The translations under genes and the position numbers were made by a program. Positions 30,763 to 41,197 of a stretch of 42,425 bases of DNA are shown here, piece by piece. The DNA lies in the IMG/VR virus record IMGVR_UViG_3300036418_000012, positions 1 to 42,425 of that record; one strand, 5' to 3'. Below the pieces are notes generated by a model. The model made no database searches, had not been told where the DNA came from, and was given only the letters and a program-made list of their open reading frames with translations. The DNA is from a virus. Each line of letters begins with the position of its first letter. Positions within the stretch are counted from its first letter, which is position 1.

Positions 30763-31259
30763 ATGGGGAGAATTCATCACGCTTTCAGTCTGGGGCACCA
30801 TCCGGCGCGATGTCATTAGGAAATAACGACTTACGATTTCACACCGCCAAGCAAGGCGAGCTTGCCTTCAACGGCTCCGAACCTTCTAACCTCAACGATG
30901 ATCTTTTGGTACGTTCGACGATCTCCGCTTCTATCCGGAACTGCGCCAAGTCTCGCGAACAAATAAGCGAGGAGATGACGGCGCTGCTGGATGTACGGGT
31001 CACCGAGAAGATGTTGAATACCTACAGCGCCGAGGCGATGCAAGCCAATCGCTTCCCTGCGGCCTGGGATCGCGCCTTTTGCCGCGCCGTCGGATCAGAT
31101 GCTCTGCTGCGCTGCCGTGCGGAAGCGGCTGGATATCGGCTCATCCGCGGCGAAGAGATCTTTCTTTTGGAACTTGGACGACAGATGCTACGCGCCAAAC
31201 GCGCGAACGAAGAAGCTGCGCTTCTGGAAAAGCGGCTCCAAGGAGCAAGCGAAATATGA
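30759..31259 (+). CDS. Conserved pre-transposase protein
   Basis: This 166-residue protein starts in a 4-bp overlap and ends in another with the transposase. Residues about 50-120 (VRSTISASIRNCAKSREQIS, EEMTALLDVRVTEKMLNTYS) resemble proteins that precede the transposase in many Mu-like phages, where a CxxSREQIAEEM-type helix is found. They are thought to be regulators or transposition cofactors. The C-terminus is a charged helix. Function unknown; the family resemblance is moderately clear. Confidence 0.7.
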   Translation: MNGENSSRFQSGAPSGAMSLGNNDLRFHTAKQGELAFNGSEPSNLNDDLLVRSTISASIRNCAKSREQISEEMTALLDVRVTEKMLNTYSAEAMQANRFPAAWDRAFCRAVGSDALLRCRAEAAGYRLIRGEEIFLLELGRQMLRAKRANEEAALLEKRLQGASEI

Positions 31260-33373
31260 GCGCCGCCGTTGCAGCACCTCAACTCGCCCTGGTATCGCGT
31301 GGCACCGAACGCTGGTTATCGGCTGAGGAAGCCATGACGCGCACAGGCTGGAGTGCCTTCTGGCTACGCGAGCAGGTTAAACGCGGAAGAGTCACTAGCC
31401 GTGATAGCCAAACGATCGCTCCGAATGGCCGCCCTCTACGTGAATACCTCGAAAGTTCGCTGCCCGATACGCCCAGTGCTGCACCACAAACCCAGCTAAC
31501 CGTCGTCGGGCCGCCGCCCTCCGCGCTGGGTCCACTGTTCTCCGGACTGTCGGCGGCAAGTGAACGTATCGTGCTTTCGGATTCCAAAGCTCAGCTGCAG
31601 GCCGAACAACGCCTGGCCATTATTCAGCCGCTTCTCGACTATAGCGCTAATGCAGAACGCTTCACCCAACTCCGCTTGGCTGATGGCCGATCGGTCACCT
31701 CGCTCGAACGGATGATCGAATACGCGGCCGGAACGGCAGGGCAGTCTACACGCACCATCAAGCGGTGGATCGCGGCCTATCGCACGATCGGATTTGCGGG
31801 GCTCGCCGATCGCATCCGAATCGACAAGGGCCAGAGCCGCTGGTTTTCGAGAAATTACAACGCTTCCATTCTCGCCGCCTACCTTTACTTGAACGAGCGC
31901 CAGTCGGTGAGCTTCGTCCACGAGCAACTCGGCTACGAGGCCGAGACATTGGGGCTGGACATCAACGATCTGCCCAGCCGCGAAACCGTCCGCGTCTTCC
32001 TATCGCAAAGCATTTCGCCCGCGATGAAGGCGCTTGCCCGCGAAGGGCAGCGCGAGTATCGCCTGCGGATGGCCCCTTATGTCCGGCGCGGCTACGTGGA
32101 TGTATTCGCTAATCAGATTTGGGTTGGCGACCACGCTATCCACGACGTGGAGATCTCGAACGACCTCTTCGAGGAAGTTCCCTTCGGAACTCCCGGCCGG
32201 CTGCGCATGTCAGCGTTTGTCGATTACCGGAGCCGCAAGGCCTGGGCGACCTGGGCGTGGGAAGGCAGCTCCCGCTCGATCGCCGCCACGGTCGTGCGCG
32301 CCATGTTGGAAGATGGACCGCCCGAGGGCATCTACGTCGATAACGGGAAGGACTATAAGAAGGTCGCCAAGGGCGCAATAAAGGCCAGCGATCTGCCCGA
32401 GTCGAAAGACGACGATACAAAGGCCCCCGAAAAGTGGTGGGAGCGGGAATGCGAGGCCATCGAAAAGACGGGCCTTCTAGCTAGGCTTGGCATCTCCGTC
32501 ACGCATTGCATCCCGCGCCACCCGCAATCGAAGCATGTTGAGCGCTTCTTCCGCACCATGCATATGCACTTCGATGCGCGCCATTCGACTTATACGTCGG
32601 GCTCGCCATTCACGCGCCCCGAAGCGACAGAAAACGCCATGATGCGCCACCGCTGGCTGCTCAAGGCCGGACGCGTGGCCGAGTCCAATCACCCACTGGC
32701 CAGCCGTTTCATTCTCGGCTGCCTCACCTGGCTGGACGAATACAACAACACGCCCCAGCACGGCGAAGGCATGGACGGATGCACGCCCAATCAGATCTTC
32801 GATGCGGAGCGCAACCCTAATCAGAAGTCGGTTCCAGAGCGTTCCGCAATCGCCCTGCTTCTGCTCGACTATGTCGTGCGCAAAGTCCGCGAATGCGCCA
32901 TCACGCTCAATAAATATCGCTATACGCCGCGCCCTGAAGATCGTCTGGCCTGGGCTGCCATGCATGAAGCGAACGAGTGCGACGTCCGCGTCGGCTTCAA
33001 CTCCGGCGATCCAGAATACGTAGTCGTCACGGATATGGACGGCCGTTTTCTCGCCTGGCTTGAAGCCGAGCCGTTACTCCGCTTTGCGCCCAACGACAAA
33101 ATCACCCAGGCCCAGATCGGCGAAAGCATGTCTATCCGCCGGGGACTTGAGAAGGCCACTAAAGCTTCGCTGTCTGCCATCGCAGTGGAGGCCCGCCGTA
33201 ACGGGGCACGCACGGCCGAGGAATCGCTTTATAGCCGCCTGCTGATCCCCACGACCACCGGTGACATCATCACCCAGCGCAAACCGCGTGTGGAGTCAAC
33301 CAGTGAGCCAGAGAACCAGCTTGTTCCAGGCGAAGCCGCTGACCGCCTGGCTGCACGACTTCGGAGGAAATAG
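31256..33373 (+). CDS. DDE transposase, MuA family
   Basis: The start at 31256 overlaps the previous stop and follows AAGGAG; the frame is open further upstream but overlaps the previous gene. The 705-residue protein has an N-terminal HTH (about 20-45, LSAEEAMTRTGWSAFWLREQ), a second DNA-binding region (about 160-200, RTIKRWIAAYRTIGFAGLAD) and the catalytic core. Catalytic residues are D292 (IWVGDHAIHD), D362 (YVDNGKDY) and E429 (SKHVERFFRT). A C-terminal beta-barrel and tail follow (about 540-705), ending RLAARLRRK. It carries out strand transfer of the phage ends and works with the MuB-like ATPase. It probably recognises the repeats at both ends. Confidence 0.95.
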   Translation: MSAAVAAPQLALVSRGTERWLSAEEAMTRTGWSAFWLREQVKRGRVTSRDSQTIAPNGRPLREYLESSLPDTPSAAPQTQLTVVGPPPSALGPLFSGLSAASERIVLSDSKAQLQAEQRLAIIQPLLDYSANAERFTQLRLADGRSVTSLERMIEYAAGTAGQSTRTIKRWIAAYRTIGFAGLADRIRIDKGQSRWFSRNYNASILAAYLYLNERQSVSFVHEQLGYEAETLGLDINDLPSRETVRVFLSQSISPAMKALAREGQREYRLRMAPYVRRGYVDVFANQIWVGDHAIHDVEISNDLFEEVPFGTPGRLRMSAFVDYRSRKAWATWAWEGSSRSIAATVVRAMLEDGPPEGIYVDNGKDYKKVAKGAIKASDLPESKDDDTKAPEKWWERECEAIEKTGLLARLGISVTHCIPRHPQSKHVERFFRTMHMHFDARHSTYTSGSPFTRPEATENAMMRHRWLLKAGRVAESNHPLASRFILGCLTWLDEYNNTPQHGEGMDGCTPNQIFDAERNPNQKSVPERSAIALLLLDYVVRKVRECAITLNKYRYTPRPEDRLAWAAMHEANECDVRVGFNSGDPEYVVVTDMDGRFLAWLEAEPLLRFAPNDKITQAQIGESMSIRRGLEKATKASLSAIAVEARRNGARTAEESLYSRLLIPTTTGDIITQRKPRVESTSEPENQLVPGEAADRLAARLRRK

Positions 33374-34365
33374 TGACAATTCTGGCGAAACGCAAGCCCT
33401 ATCTGAATTCGTTGGGGCTACCCAACGATGCGGAGATGATCCGCCGCACGCGCGCCTTTGTTCTCCATGCGGGGCTGACGCTCAGCGAGATGGCCGATAT
33501 GGCCAGCCTCAACGCAAATTCGCTGCGCGTTTTCCTGTCGGGGTGTTACGACAAGCACCATGCCACTGCTGACAACACGCTCGCAATTCGCGCAGCACTC
33601 AAGCAGGTTATCGATCTTCATGAAATCAAGAGCGCCCCGCCCGCCTCTACGAAGCACTACCGCACCGCCGAATTCGATGCCCTGCGCCGCTCAATGTGGG
33701 CAGCATTGCGGCAGGGTACCGCGGCCCTCGCCGATGGACCTCCCGGAACCGAGAAGACGTACACATTCCGCCATGTGTGTGAAGAGATCAATGAGTCGAA
33801 AGAGGGCCGAGCGGTCTATGTCTATGTCCAGATCGATCAGAGCCCGCAATCATTTCTGATCGAAGCCTGCACGGAAGCCGGCATCCCGAACCGCGGCACA
33901 ATTGGGCAGCTCATGCGCAAGTTGCGCTTCTTTCTGGGAGATCAGCGCGCCCTGCTCGTGATCGACGAAGCGCAGCATCTCGGATTGAACGGGCTGGAGA
34001 TCCTTCGCCAGCTCCTCGACACACCGCCCTATTTCGGCGTCGTTATGGGCGGCTCACACGATCTTTCAGTGCGCCTGCGCGATTGGAAGATGGAGCAATG
34101 GCGCTCACGTCTGCGCCGCACTCACCTTCTCAAAGGGCTCAGTTTCGATGAGGCCGCGGCGATCCTCGTCGGCGAACTGGGGCCGATGTCTCCTCAGGAC
34201 ATCGCCGACTCGATCGCCGACGCCACAGTTGAAGCCGTTCGCGATCGAAAGTCCTTCAAATACATTTCTGCTCGAAACCTGTTCTTTGCCATTGAGGATG
34301 CCAAGCTCGCGATCGCCGAAGCGACCGTCGGCCAAATGCAGCAGAACAATCAGGAGGCTCTATGA
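33373..34365 (+). CDS. MuB-like AAA ATPase, target DNA activator
   Basis: A GTG start follows TCGGAGGAAATA, overlapping the transposase stop by one base. The 330-residue protein has an N-terminal HTH-like region (about 35-60, LTLSEMADMASLNANSLRVF). The ATPase follows: GPPGTEKT at 122-129 as Walker A, and LLVIDEAQHL with D198 and E199 as Walker B. A conserved Arg-rich segment lies near 235-250 (WKMEQWRSRLRRTHLLKG). It binds ATP and target DNA and delivers it to the transposase. The Walker A has Glu at position 127 where Gly is usual. Confidence 0.9.
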   Translation: MTILAKRKPYLNSLGLPNDAEMIRRTRAFVLHAGLTLSEMADMASLNANSLRVFLSGCYDKHHATADNTLAIRAALKQVIDLHEIKSAPPASTKHYRTAEFDALRRSMWAALRQGTAALADGPPGTEKTYTFRHVCEEINESKEGRAVYVYVQIDQSPQSFLIEACTEAGIPNRGTIGQLMRKLRFFLGDQRALLVIDEAQHLGLNGLEILRQLLDTPPYFGVVMGGSHDLSVRLRDWKMEQWRSRLRRTHLLKGLSFDEAAAILVGELGPMSPQDIADSIADATVEAVRDRKSFKYISARNLFFAIEDAKLAIAEATVGQMQQNNQEAL

Positions 34366-35591: not shown

Positions 35592-35598
35592 ACCACCA

Positions 35599-35622
35599 GG
35601 TGCGGACCAATCGGCTCGCACC
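35599..35622 (+). other. Hairpin in the gap before the winged-helix gene
   Basis: GGTGCG (35599-35604) pairs with CGCACC (35617-35622). This is one of few true gaps in the early operon; the ribosome-binding site TCGGAGGAATCACC follows 20 bp later. No T-tract, so it may be an mRNA processing or stability element. Confidence 0.4.
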
Positions 35623-35653
35623 GTAACCCAAGTCTCACTTCGGAGGAATCACC

Positions 35654-38089: not shown

Positions 38090-38496
38090 GCAAGGCAATT
38101 CGAGCGAAACAGCGCTACCTGCGCGAAGAGAATCGGAAATACGGCATCCACATGGAGCGCGTTTCTGTCGATGCTTATCCCTATGAGGGTATCCGGCCTG
38201 TTGCTGTATTCCGATCACGTTCTTTTCTCGCGCAAGTATTCGAAGAACAGGACGGCGCGGTGCGCATCAGCATCATGCGCACCATGGTTGACGAAGACGG
38301 CGAATGGTTGGAGGGCATCTCATGGAACTCTCTGATTGCCATCAAGAATGAGTGCGGGTTCAGCGCTCACTGGGCTGTCGAGATCTTCCCGCCGGCTGAT
38401 GAGATCGTCGACGTCGCGAACATGCGGCACTTATTCGTGTTGCCGGAGGCACCTGCTTTTGCCTGGCGAAAGTCGGGACTTCGGAGGATCGCATGA
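38086..38496 (+). CDS. Conserved phage protein of unknown function
   Basis: A GTG overlaps the previous stop, with GGCGGAGGATC upstream; the frame extends further 5' but overlaps the receiver-like gene. The 136-residue product contains WNSLIAIKNECGFSAHWAVE, IFPPADEIVDVANMRHLFVL and ends RKSGLRRIA. The motif around WAVExxPPxxExVxVANMRHL is familiar from proteins in many phages and prophages, but its function is unknown. No signal or TM. Confidence 0.7.
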   Translation: MSKAIRAKQRYLREENRKYGIHMERVSVDAYPYEGIRPVAVFRSRSFLAQVFEEQDGAVRISIMRTMVDEDGEWLEGISWNSLIAIKNECGFSAHWAVEIFPPADEIVDVANMRHLFVLPEAPAFAWRKSGLRRIA

Positions 38497-38723
38497 CACC
38501 CTATGACCTGGCCATGCAGCAGTTCCGCATCGCGTACCTGGTGCGCGCCGTGATCGCAGCCGGCGGCAATGAATGCGCGGCCGCGCGGGCGATCGGCGTG
38601 CACCGCAACACCATCTCGCGCGCAATCGTCGCCGGCGGATACACGCGCCGCCGCATCAAGAAGCTCGTCGAGCATCACCGCGCTGTCTGCGCAGGCAAAG
38701 TTCCGCCTAAGGGTGAAGCATGA
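38493..38723 (+). CDS. Fis-like HTH protein
   Basis: This 76-residue protein starts in an ATGA overlap. It contains a Fis-type helix-turn-helix, ECAAARAIGVHRNTISRAIV at about 27-46, with a basic flank (GGYTRRRIKKLVEHHR). Proteins of this type act as small transcription regulators. In Mu, middle and late activation is by Mor and C; this could have a comparable function, but that is a guess. Confidence 0.7.
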   Translation: MTPYDLAMQQFRIAYLVRAVIAAGGNECAAARAIGVHRNTISRAIVAGGYTRRRIKKLVEHHRAVCAGKVPPKGEA

Positions 38724-39070
38724 ATCAGCTTCCGCAATCTCTCTATCGTCTCGTGATGGACCTACCTCCTATGGAGACGTGTGAGGCATGCGGAAGTCTT
38801 GCGCATGGCAGATGCAATAACAACAAACAAGAGGGGCAGAGAGTTGACAGTGAACACGGCGGAGCCCACGTATCACAGGCAGTGCCAGTATCCAGGATGC
38901 AGTCAATCGGCAGATGGTCAGAAGCGATTTTGCAGCGACAGACATCGGGCGTTGGATTGGAAGAGTCGCCATATAAAGGCCACGCCGGAGATTTGTCCGC
39001 ACTGCGGAGGGAATCTCAAAAGGAAGCCAGGAAGGCCGCTTCGCAACAAATGATGGACTTGCGCAGCTGA
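38720..39070 (+). CDS. Small Cys-containing protein, overlapping frames
   Basis: The ATG overlaps the previous stop. The first 42 residues (MNQLPQSLYRLVMDLPPMET, then CEACGSLAHGRCNNNK) look like a genuine small zinc-binding protein, but the rest of the 116-residue frame runs antagonistically through a zinc-finger gene in another frame (38781-39053). The C-terminal half is therefore probably not real, or the two are joined by frameshift. Start well supported, end doubtful. Confidence 0.4.
   Translation: MNQLPQSLYRLVMDLPPMETCEACGSLAHGRCNNNKQEGQRVDSEHGGAHVSQAVPVSRMQSIGRWSEAILQRQTSGVGLEESPYKGHAGDLSALRRESQKEARKAASQQMMDLRS
38781..39053 (+). CDS. Zinc-finger protein
   Basis: The 90-residue frame ends with a convincing zinc module: YHRQCQYPGCSQSADGQKRF, then CSDRHRALDWKSRHIKA and ICPHCGGNLKRKPGRP. 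The start is uncertain: an ATG at 38781, or a GTG at 38850 preceded by GAGGGGCAGAG, giving 67 residues. The N-terminal part overlaps the gene in the other frame at 38720. Zinc proteins with this CxxxxC...CS-x-RHR pattern are common in phages and may bind DNA. Confidence 0.65.
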   Translation: MRHAEVLRMADAITTNKRGRELTVNTAEPTYHRQCQYPGCSQSADGQKRFCSDRHRALDWKSRHIKATPEICPHCGGNLKRKPGRPLRNK

Positions 39071-39091
39071 TTTCGTCAGAGGAGCGAACAA

Positions 39092-39250
39092 ATGGATGAG
39101 CTTGTGGCAAAGATACTCGATTGGATGAATAAGAACCCCAATCAGAACGTGCTCATTCATGTGAAGACCAGTTTCGAACAGGCGTGGTACGAAGATCAGT
39201 TTCGCGCCGCGAACGCAAATCTGGCTTACATCTTTTACGCGGTGCTTTAG
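39092..39250 (+). CDS. 52-residue acidic-helical protein
   Basis: AGAGGAGCGAACAA precedes the ATG. The product, MDELVAKILDWMNKNPNQNV followed by LIHVKTSFEQAWYEDQFRAA and ending AYIFYAVL, is 52 residues, with a short predicted helix at both ends. It is flanked by the hairpin-containing spacers. Function unknown. Confidence 0.65.
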   Translation: MDELVAKILDWMNKNPNQNVLIHVKTSFEQAWYEDQFRAANANLAYIFYAVL

Positions 39251-39264
39251 GGCATCGTCGCCGC

Positions 39265-39280
39265 TGGCACTGCGGTGCCA
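39265..39280 (+). other. UNCG-tetraloop hairpin before a small gene (copy A)
   Basis: TGGCAC-TGCG-GTGCCA forms a 6-bp stem with a UGCG loop closed by C-G. It lies between the stop at 39250 and the ribosome-binding site AAGGAAAGGGA before 39296. The spacer begins GGCATCGTCGCC just after the stop. Confidence 0.6.
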
Positions 39281-39295
39281 AGGAAAGGGAACGAT

Positions 39296-39499
39296 ATGGC
39301 TGTTTTGAAGGGATATTGTGAACACGGCGTTTTGCAAGCGGCTCTCATGGAAGAACACGCAGACCGAGATGAGATTGAAGAATTCGCTCATTCCTGGCGC
39401 GTGGAAAAGGCCGACTCCGTATCGATGGAAGGTGATCCATGCTCGAAGTGTCGTGAGCGATTTGAGAGCAATATGAGAATCATCGATGGTGTTTCGTAG
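39296..39499 (+). CDS. 67-residue early protein with CxxC
   Basis: The ATG at 39296 follows AGGAAAGGGAACGAT and the copy A hairpin. The product begins MAVLKGYCEHGVLQAALMEE and has an acidic middle. A CSKC motif at about 53-56 with Cys8 nearby could bind zinc. Function unknown. Confidence 0.6.
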   Translation: MAVLKGYCEHGVLQAALMEEHADRDEIEEFAHSWRVEKADSVSMEGDPCSKCRERFESNMRIIDGVS

Positions 39500-39528
39500 G
39501 CACCGTCGCGAATGCTTTAACAGCACTG

Positions 39529-39540
39529 GCGCTTCGGCGC
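39529..39540 (+). other. UNCG-tetraloop hairpin before a small gene (copy B)
   Basis: GCGC-TTCG-GCGC gives a 4-bp stem with a cUUCGg loop in the gap 39500-39553. The stop-proximal part begins GGCACCGTCGCG, very like copy A. The ribosome-binding site GAAAGGAAGC follows 2-4 bases after the stem. Confidence 0.6.
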
Positions 39541-39553
39541 ATGAAAGGAAGCT

Positions 39554-39847
39554 ATGAGTCATCTCGAATATCAGTGCGGACGATGTGGCAGTAGCATCAT
39601 GTTCAAAGACTGCCCGAACTGCGGCGGTGACGGCGTTACGAGCCATGACTGCGGCGAAGATTGTTGCTGCTGTGCCGATCCTGAAGACAACGTGGCCTGC
39701 GACATTTGCCAAGGTAGCGGAACGTTTCCGCTCTGCTTATCGTCGCGCGAATGGTGTGAGTCGCATCCGATGCCAGGCCGCGAAAAAGTCGCACGCAGCA
39801 CACCTGAAAGCTTCAAGGTACCTAGCCGTACGCGGCGCAAAGCTTAG
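39554..39847 (+). CDS. Cys-rich zinc-ribbon protein, DnaJ-type repeats
   Basis: This 97-residue protein has several CxxC motifs: CGRCG, CPNCGGDG, CGEDCCCCAD and CDICQGSG, near residues 8-60. The CxxCxGxG-like units (CPNCGGDGV, CDICQGSGT) resemble the DnaJ zinc-binding repeats. A basic tail (VPSRTRRKA) ends the protein. GAAAGGAAGCT lies before the ATG. Probably binds zinc and perhaps unfolded protein or nucleic acid. Confidence 0.7.
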   Translation: MSHLEYQCGRCGSSIMFKDCPNCGGDGVTSHDCGEDCCCCADPEDNVACDICQGSGTFPLCLSSREWCESHPMPGREKVARSTPESFKVPSRTRRKA

Positions 39848-39870
39848 GCAACACTGTGTAGGCGGAAACG

Positions 39871-39888
39871 CAGGCACTACGGTGCCTG
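39871..39888 (+). other. UNCG-tetraloop hairpin before a small gene (copy C)
   Basis: CAGGCAC-TACG-GTGCCTG is a perfect 7-bp stem with a UACG loop, in the gap 39848-39903. The ribosome-binding site AAAGAAAGGGA follows directly. The spacer starts GGCAACACTG after the TAG. Confidence 0.6.
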
Positions 39889-39903
39889 AAAGAAAGGGAT
39901 GAA

Positions 39904-40122
39904 ATGGCTTTAGAACACAACACAGGTCGCCCTGAAAGTGAGAACCCGGACGACTTCTCGAAGGAATACAAAACCGGGTGGAAGGATGGCTGGGATTCAA
40001 TCGAATCGCGGATCAAAACAGCTATCGAAACCTACGACGCGGAGATATTCGTCTGTGCTGACTGCGGGAAACTGGCTTACATGATTGACCCCGGAGACGG
40101 ATTAGTCACGCACATCGACTAG
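39904..40122 (+). CDS. Small acidic early protein with CxxC
   Basis: The ATG follows AGAAAGGGATGAA and copy C. The 72-residue product is acidic, with EYKTGWKDGWDSIESRIKTA and VCADCGKLAYMIDPGDGL, possibly half a zinc ribbon. Function unknown. The next gap (40123-40171) begins CACCGTAGC after the stop, like copies A and B, but shows no clear UNCG stem. Confidence 0.65.
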   Translation: MALEHNTGRPESENPDDFSKEYKTGWKDGWDSIESRIKTAIETYDAEIFVCADCGKLAYMIDPGDGLVTHID

Positions 40123-40171
40123 CACCGTAGCAAACGGGATTTAAGTATGGAATGACGAGAGGATCTAGATC

Positions 40172-40693
40172 ATGGGAAACTCGATAAGCAAAGGCCAGTT
40201 GAAGCGACTACAGGTTCTGTACGGCCAGCTCGCGCGTCATACCGACCAGGGCGCCGATCGCGCTGCGCGCTTGGCCTGGGCTTCCCAACTCGTCGGCCGC
40301 CAAATCGCGAGTTTCAGCGATCTCAACCAGGTAGACGCCAAAGGCCTTATTGACACGCTACAGGGGCAGCTCGGCATTAAAGAGACTGTGAGGCCGCGTA
40401 AGCGCCTCGATCGCGCCAGCGCCCAAAAGGCGGGCACGGAAGGGCGTCGTGGTAACGAGAGCAATGAGACCACGATTGCCGGGCCGGCCGAGTTTGCGCG
40501 CATCCGCTATGTCCTCGATCTACTAGGCTGGAATCAGACTCAGCTCGACGCCTGGCTACGCTCGTCGCGTTCTCCGCTCAAGAGCAAAGCTTCGCCTGCG
40601 ATCAGGACACTGGGCGATGCCAACCGCGTCTACTGGGCGCTCAAGGGCATGGCCACGGCGCAGGGCAAGTGGAAAGGGAAGGCCGCATCATGA
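40172..40693 (+). CDS. GemA/gp16-like regulatory protein
   Basis: This 173-residue protein begins MGNSISKGQLKRLQVLYGQL and continues LAWASQLVGRQIASFSDLNQ, the pattern of the Mu gp16/GemA family (DUF1018), in which the order KxQLxxLxVL and LxWAS-x-x-x-GR-x-I-x-SF is shared. The second half has a Lys/Arg-rich linker (RPRKRLDRASAQKAG) and a conserved helical block (IRYVLDLLGWNQTQLDAWLR). GAGAGGATCTAGATC precedes the ATG. In Mu, GemA modulates host gene expression and DNA topology. The match is by signature, so moderate. Confidence 0.65.
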   Translation: MGNSISKGQLKRLQVLYGQLARHTDQGADRAARLAWASQLVGRQIASFSDLNQVDAKGLIDTLQGQLGIKETVRPRKRLDRASAQKAGTEGRRGNESNETTIAGPAEFARIRYVLDLLGWNQTQLDAWLRSSRSPLKSKASPAIRTLGDANRVYWALKGMATAQGKWKGKAAS

Positions 40694-40938
40694 ACATCAC
40701 CAAAGATCAAAAGGTCGTTGTAGACAGGGTCAATGCAATCCTGTTGGACGCCGTGTCTGGCATTCTTAAGGCGCAGCTTCCGCATCTGGAAGCTGTCGGT
40801 TTGACGATCGAAGAATTCAAACTCGATCTCCTCGTTGCCCCAACCGAGACGCCCGCGCCGGTGGAGACCGATGAGGACTTCCTGCGGAAGCGCAGAATTA
40901 TGCCCGATCTCACGATCAGAGAAACGGAGCATCGGTAA
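40690..40938 (+). CDS. Small helical early protein
   Basis: The start at 40690 (MNITKDQKVVVDRVNAILLD) overlaps the GemA-like stop. The 82-residue product is amphipathic helix followed by an acidic stretch (PTETPAPVETDEDFLRKRRI). Nothing distinctive is recognised. Confidence 0.6.
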   Translation: MNITKDQKVVVDRVNAILLDAVSGILKAQLPHLEAVGLTIEEFKLDLLVAPTETPAPVETDEDFLRKRRIMPDLTIRETEHR

Positions 40939-40939
40939 G

Positions 40940-41197
40940 ATGGCGCGCGCGGGCTTTCGCATTCCCGATCAGCTTTTGCTGCCATGGAGCCCGAGGTATA
41001 CGATCTCGGCGTCTCATGCTGCACAGATGCTTGATTGCTCGATCGACACCATCTGCCGCATGATCGAGGCCGGCACACTGAAGGCTTATAAACTGAATCC
41101 GGATAAGCCCACCAGCCCCTGGCGCGTGAATTATGATTCAGTCATCGAACACATCGAGCGGATCCATCGGGAGAACGGCCTGGAAAAGAGGTTCTAA
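40940..41197 (+). CDS. Excisionase/MerR-like HTH protein
   Basis: The start at 40940 (MARAGFRIPDQLLLPWSPRY) gives 85 residues; the frame extends upstream through another gene. Residues about 22-65 form an HTH_17-like domain: TISASHAAQMLDCSIDTICR, MIEAGTLKAYKL, then PTSPWRVNYDSVIEHIERI. Such proteins bind DNA as excisionases or small regulators. Its place near the right end is compatible with a role at the end sites, but this is not shown. Confidence 0.75.
   Translation: MARAGFRIPDQLLLPWSPRYTISASHAAQMLDCSIDTICRMIEAGTLKAYKLNPDKPTSPWRVNYDSVIEHIERIHRENGLEKRF

Follow-up and report, generated by a model that had tools for sequence, protein, structure and literature searches.

How phage operons take in small accessory genes without disturbance to the neighboring genes is an open question. 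It is raised by a 42,425-base virus record (IMG/VR record IMGVR_UViG_3300036418_000012; the whole record was analyzed and is referred to below as the window), in which three consecutive small genes are each preceded by a hairpin with a UNCG loop. Since Mu-like transposition genes are present in the window, namely those for a phrog_310 transposase (positions 31079–33373) and a phrog_296 transposition protein (33373–34365), it represents a transposable, Mu-like phage. Named phages are only distant relatives (the best transposase matches show less than 30% identity), and comparison of the window region with INPHARED phages gave no match.

The hairpins are located within a block of four small genes and their spacers (39054–40171, plus strand, as are all features of this region described below). 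In two related contigs, L048 and L049, a homolog of the reading frame starting at 38781 is directly followed by a homolog of the gene starting at 40172, and the block is missing; the two homologs are likewise adjacent in a more distant relative, L032. Because L048 and L049 lack the block, the four genes are read, from this sequence comparison, as inserted at 39054–40171, with gain versus loss not polarised. The right flank of the insert is a resident gene (40172–40693), approximately 76% identical in L048 and L049. The GC content of the block (52.4%) is lower than that of the flanks (58.9% and 57.4%), and all four inserted genes end with TAG, compared to 8 of the 40 other genes of the window. 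On the left side, two long reading frames (38720–39070 and 38781–39053) overlap in the same stretch, and the gene may be either or both of them; relatives of the 38781 frame occur in L048 (4725–4931), L049 (4764–4976) and L032. A further window gene, starting at 40940, has three tandem relatives in L048 (5791–6443) and three in L049 (5788–6419).

The inserted reading frames encode putative proteins of 52 aa (gene 1; 39092–39250), 67 aa (gene 2; 39296–39499), 97 aa (gene 3; 39554–39847; Cys-rich, with the motif HDCGEDCCCC) and 72 aa (gene 4; 39904–40122). No Pfam family was assigned to any of them at the curated cut-off, and genes 1 to 3 gave no match in PHROGs; for gene 3, no Pfam or PHROGs family was found even at 0.1. 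Gene 4 has a weak PHROGs match (0.0027) and no relative among the viral contigs. Gene 3 has relatives in 28 viral contigs (L003–L030), and the UNCG hairpin is absent upstream of the gene in all 28. Since these relatives lack the hairpin, the spacer goes with the location rather than with gene 3. In one of these contigs (L005), the relative of gene 3 (upstream of 5001) is preceded by an 81-nt gap containing a different, G+C-rich inverted repeat (GGGCGGGA...TCCCGCCC).

The first-pass annotation described the gaps before genes 2, 3 and 4 as each containing a cUNCGg loop with its stem, followed by a purine-rich Shine-Dalgarno (SD) sequence and ATG, and this description was confirmed. Spacer A (39251–39295) consists of the leader GGCATCGTCGC (after the TAG of gene 1), hairpin A (39265–39280; TGGCAC-TGCG-GTGCCA, 6 bp), which forms in the fold, and the ribosome-binding site (RBS) AAAGGGA. 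Spacer B (39500–39553) contains, after TAG, the leader GCACCGTCGC, a TTCG hairpin (39529–39540; GCGC-TTCG-GCGC, 4 bp) and the RBS AAAGGAAG; this is a weak copy, with only four uninterrupted pairs plus a G.A mismatch, and it does not appear in the minimum-energy fold of the gap. Spacer C (39848–39903) begins, after TAG, with GGCAACAC and carries hairpin C (39871–39888; CAGGCAC-TACG-GTGCCTG, 7 bp) and again AAAGGGA. Gap C folds better than shuffled sequences (z −3.2); at minimum energy the same arms take part in a larger pairing, and the simple hairpin is present in the centroid structure computed for a longer stretch. The strong copies, A and C, share 87% identity across 31 nt, and B is more distant. 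The outer gaps of the block differ: the first (spacer 0; 39054–39091) has a different, weak hairpin (CTGAtttcgTCAG; fold z −0.7) and the RBS GAGGAG, and the last (spacer D; 40123–40171), which precedes the resident gene, carries the leader CACCGTAGC after TAG and no UNCG hairpin.

When both strands of the window are scanned, the complete arrangement (cUNCGg on a stem of 4 bp or more, RBS and ATG) is present at exactly three sites, which are those described above. In 300 dinucleotide shuffles the mean was 0.09 arrangements; two shuffles reached two and none reached three. A scan for sigma-70-type promoters detected no such site in region 38400–41000, and no intrinsic terminator (hairpin plus T run) was detected in the block, where the hairpins are followed by purines. 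Another gene gap of the window (35592–35653) contains an inverted repeat, GGTGCG-12 nt-CGCACC, which is not of the UNCG type.

In three of the four gaps (at 39252, 39500 and 40122/40123), the leader was confirmed to follow the stop codon immediately, as had been noticed from the sequence. Sites matching the bare 10-mer are no rarity: the window has 84 with up to two mismatches, against 83 expected. What is unusual is that the leader stands immediately behind stop codons, not the 10-mer itself. A second motif, TAG-GCAYCGYCGC, lies 3′ of several of the inserted genes.

Similar spacers were identified in other phages. A pattern scan of IMG/VR (hairpin, RBS and ATG) yielded 17 contigs, with three loci carrying the element in a gene gap: L031, L035 (together with L038 and L042) and L032. 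Since the hairpin sequence itself was used to find L031, L035 and L032, its conservation there is partly selected. In L032, the spacer is placed 5′ of a homolog of window gene 41198, and the preceding gene differs from that in the window (a relocated gene). Ten further contigs (L034, L036, L037, L039, L040, L041, L043, L044, L045 and L047) were set apart on account of long stems and pyrimidine-rich tails; they carry long cUUCGg hairpins just before the RBS, two of them before two successive genes in nine contigs and one in L040. The hairpin of L033/L046 was rejected as the same element, having neither a leader nor a clear gene junction.

Scanning separately for the leader by itself retrieved eight contigs. 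The matches in L051, L052 and L055 lie inside other reading frames and were rejected; the remaining five contigs, the L031/L050/L054/L056 group and L053, all contain a hairpin-type element in the gap one gene upstream. In the L031/L050 group the spacer precedes one gene, and L053 represents the same gene junction as L035 from the independent hairpin scan. A profile built only from window copies A, B and C and run on approximately 1 Mb of fetched loci placed L031, L032, L050/L054/L056, L053 and L118 ahead of the rest, although their E-values were modest (3e-4 to 0.08); L035 scored E 0.57, below two unrelated matches. L118 was added by a search with model R1. The spacers of L118 and L035 are nearly identical, and the gap fold of L118 has a z of −2.35, with another structure as the minimum-energy fold.

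Apart from L031, matches to a looser hairpin-RBS pattern lacked the ATG or spacer context, and most matches of a looser leader scan were located inside other reading frames. Two matches in bacterial genomes (L069 and L070; hairpin and RBS) were read as chance, and the consensus spacer gave only weak, chance-level matches to INPHARED. About four or five of the junctions are independent; most lie on short contigs, several of these measuring 4–7 kb.

The junction between a YqaJ-type exonuclease gene and the next gene is found in both empty and filled states. The spacer follows the exonuclease gene in L035, L118 and L053; no spacer is present in L135, L124 and L116, and at such empty sites the stop codon adjoins or overlaps the SD sequence. 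Comparison of L035 with L135 revealed a 34–35-nt insert placed exactly between TAA and GAAAGG, i.e. between the stop codon and the SD sequence. L035 carries the spacer only, L118 the spacer plus two genes, and L053 a decayed spacer and one different gene followed by the leader. The sequences of L035 and L118 diverge at short AAG/AAAGG matches. The contig L005 mentioned above also carries the gene adjoining the exonuclease (L123). The proposal that the element travels with cassette genes holds in part: genes are inserted, and elsewhere the spacer stands beside genes that are gained or lost, but it is not tied to one gene, as seen from the relatives of gene 3.

The stems in the window had been interpreted as showing compensatory changes. 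This was examined with an alignment of eight copies (A1) against 500 shuffled controls, and covariation did not rise above the shuffles, 88 of the 500 reaching the observed score; the apparent compensation disappears once eight copies are aligned. The T-A/A-T change of the outer pair is lost, as this pair is unpaired in five of the eight copies. The change at the inner pair remains as the sole consistent variation (A-U, with G-C in B and G-U in L054). A and C are near-identical copies and do not provide independent evidence of compensatory change. Furthermore, the UNCG loop is lost in L053 (UACA), which also has a stem mismatch, and in L050/L054/L056 (GGCG); these contigs were reached via the leader and not via the hairpin pattern. 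These results do not demonstrate a purely structural RNA element: there is no covariation signal, L053 has lost both loop and stem, and L050/L054/L056 have lost the UNCG loop.

The explanation we prefer, to which we give about an even chance of being right, is that the hairpins are part of a short module-boundary spacer, extending from stop codon to SD sequence, that precedes accessory genes; the function suggested for it is a candidate one. The anatomy is (i) a CGTCGC-like lead, (ii) a GGCAC-UNCG-GUGCC hairpin in most copies, (iii) an SD sequence (AAAGG) and (iv) ATG, and, on the 3′ side, the small gene, TAG and the GCAYCGYCGC leader. A few different environmental phages also carry the spacer, at positions where relatives are missing the gene or have other genes. 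The stop/SD arrangement of empty sites would favor translational coupling. The hairpin may separate the RBS of an incoming gene from the upstream RNA and keep the SD sequence clear, so that the spacer would give the inserted gene an independent translation start instead of stop/SD coupling. Approximately 30 nt of near-identical spacer, together with the AAAGG motif, could also provide homology for homologous or micro-homologous exchange, and phage recombination at this homology might add or remove genes. A more far-reaching form of this proposal is a phage gene-cassette format, in which a recombinase, dedicated or general, would move single accessory genes from one phage to another, unrelated one at fixed stop/Shine-Dalgarno junctions, each gene being flanked 5′ by a hairpin with RBS and 3′ by a TAG-GCAYCGYCGC leader; we regard this as rather unlikely.

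Common descent might also account for the copies, one spacer having been copied several times together with genes that were duplicated or acquired, while its hairpin would do no more than any ordinary intercistronic spacer. The 87% identity of A and C over 31 nt, the lack of covariation and the decay of the hairpin in L053 and of the loop in L050/L054/L056 agree with this possibility. However, the same type of spacer stands before unrelated genes in different phages, genes at one junction are swapped while the spacer stays, and the downstream genes show no mutual similarity. Common descent is a possible explanation that we consider doubtful. The position directly upstream of the SD sequence in nearly all copies, the UNCG loops of A, B, C, L031, L035, L118 and L032, and the fold scores of gap C (z −3.2) and L118 (z −2.35) would fit a stable UNCG hairpin 5′ of the RBS that sets translation or protects processed mRNA ends, in line with the proposal of the first-pass annotation. 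Such a role appears improbable, given that B and L053 do not form the hairpin, that the minimum-energy fold of L118 differs and that no covariation is seen. Least probable is a DNA operator, with the GGCAC-N4-GTGCC palindrome binding a repressor at several places of the early operon: the arms are perfect over 5 bp in several copies, but in A, B and C the asymmetric TNCG center has one and the same orientation with respect to the genes, no promoter-like site lies nearby, and the palindrome occurs in phages of different type.

If the module-boundary reading is correct, the spacer may help to explain how phages collect and express small extra genes. A recurring spacer whose sites are found both empty and filled among close relatives would allow direct tests of how such genes enter and how they are expressed.

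Compared with known systems, the spacer is not a PeSL, an ESAS, an attC site or an Rfam family. Very stable C(UUCG)G hairpins are reported to lie between T4 genes (Tuerk 1988). By this description, T4 and the window phage have in common that UNCG tetraloop hairpins of high stability separate genes; the window phage differs in the link to inserted genes and in the leader. No Rfam family matched at the gathering score in the whole window, and the integron attC cores RYYYAAC and GTTRRRY were absent from the 12 gaps examined.

The promoter-early-stem-loop (PeSL) motifs of T4-like phages (Arbiol 2010 and Comeau 2014, as cited in PMC4503421) are, as outlined there, also stem-loop spacers between small early genes and are tied to modular gene shuffling. 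Relative to that outline, the window block has no sigma-70-like promoter or terminator-like stem-loop with a T run, its RBS directly follows the hairpin, and the phage is not T4-like. The SAS/ESAS sites of cluster K mycobacteriophages, whose function is unknown, are short repeats with inverted repeats just upstream of the starts of small genes of different families (PMC3203893). The 13-bp SAS GGGATAGGAGCCC has no match in the window at up to two mismatches; at three there are seven matches versus 11.3 expected, none in gaps. ESAS are 17-bp imperfect inverted repeats with a variable spacer (PMC3203893), whereas the arms in the window measure 4–7 bp, and conservation of the cluster K sites follows that of gene families (PMC3203893), unlike the window spacers. 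Boundary sequences between modules are an old idea for lambdoid phages (cited in PMC3029335); in the outline given there, they resemble the present case as short conserved junction sequences with a possible role in recombination, and the window spacer differs from them in also carrying a hairpin and an RBS.

The inserted block also resembles the morons of Mu-like phages, small accessory genes of lower GC content placed between genes that are adjacent in relatives (PMC4378225), and its flanking genes are indeed adjacent in L048, L049 and L032. Morons are described as having their own promoter and terminator (PMC4378225), whereas neither was found here by scans for sigma-70-type promoters and intrinsic terminators. 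The mechanism by which accessory genes enter Mu-like Pseudomonas phages has been called mysterious, and no common flanking sequence was recognized at their regions of genomic plasticity (PMC4378225); in the window, by contrast, a shared spacer is present.
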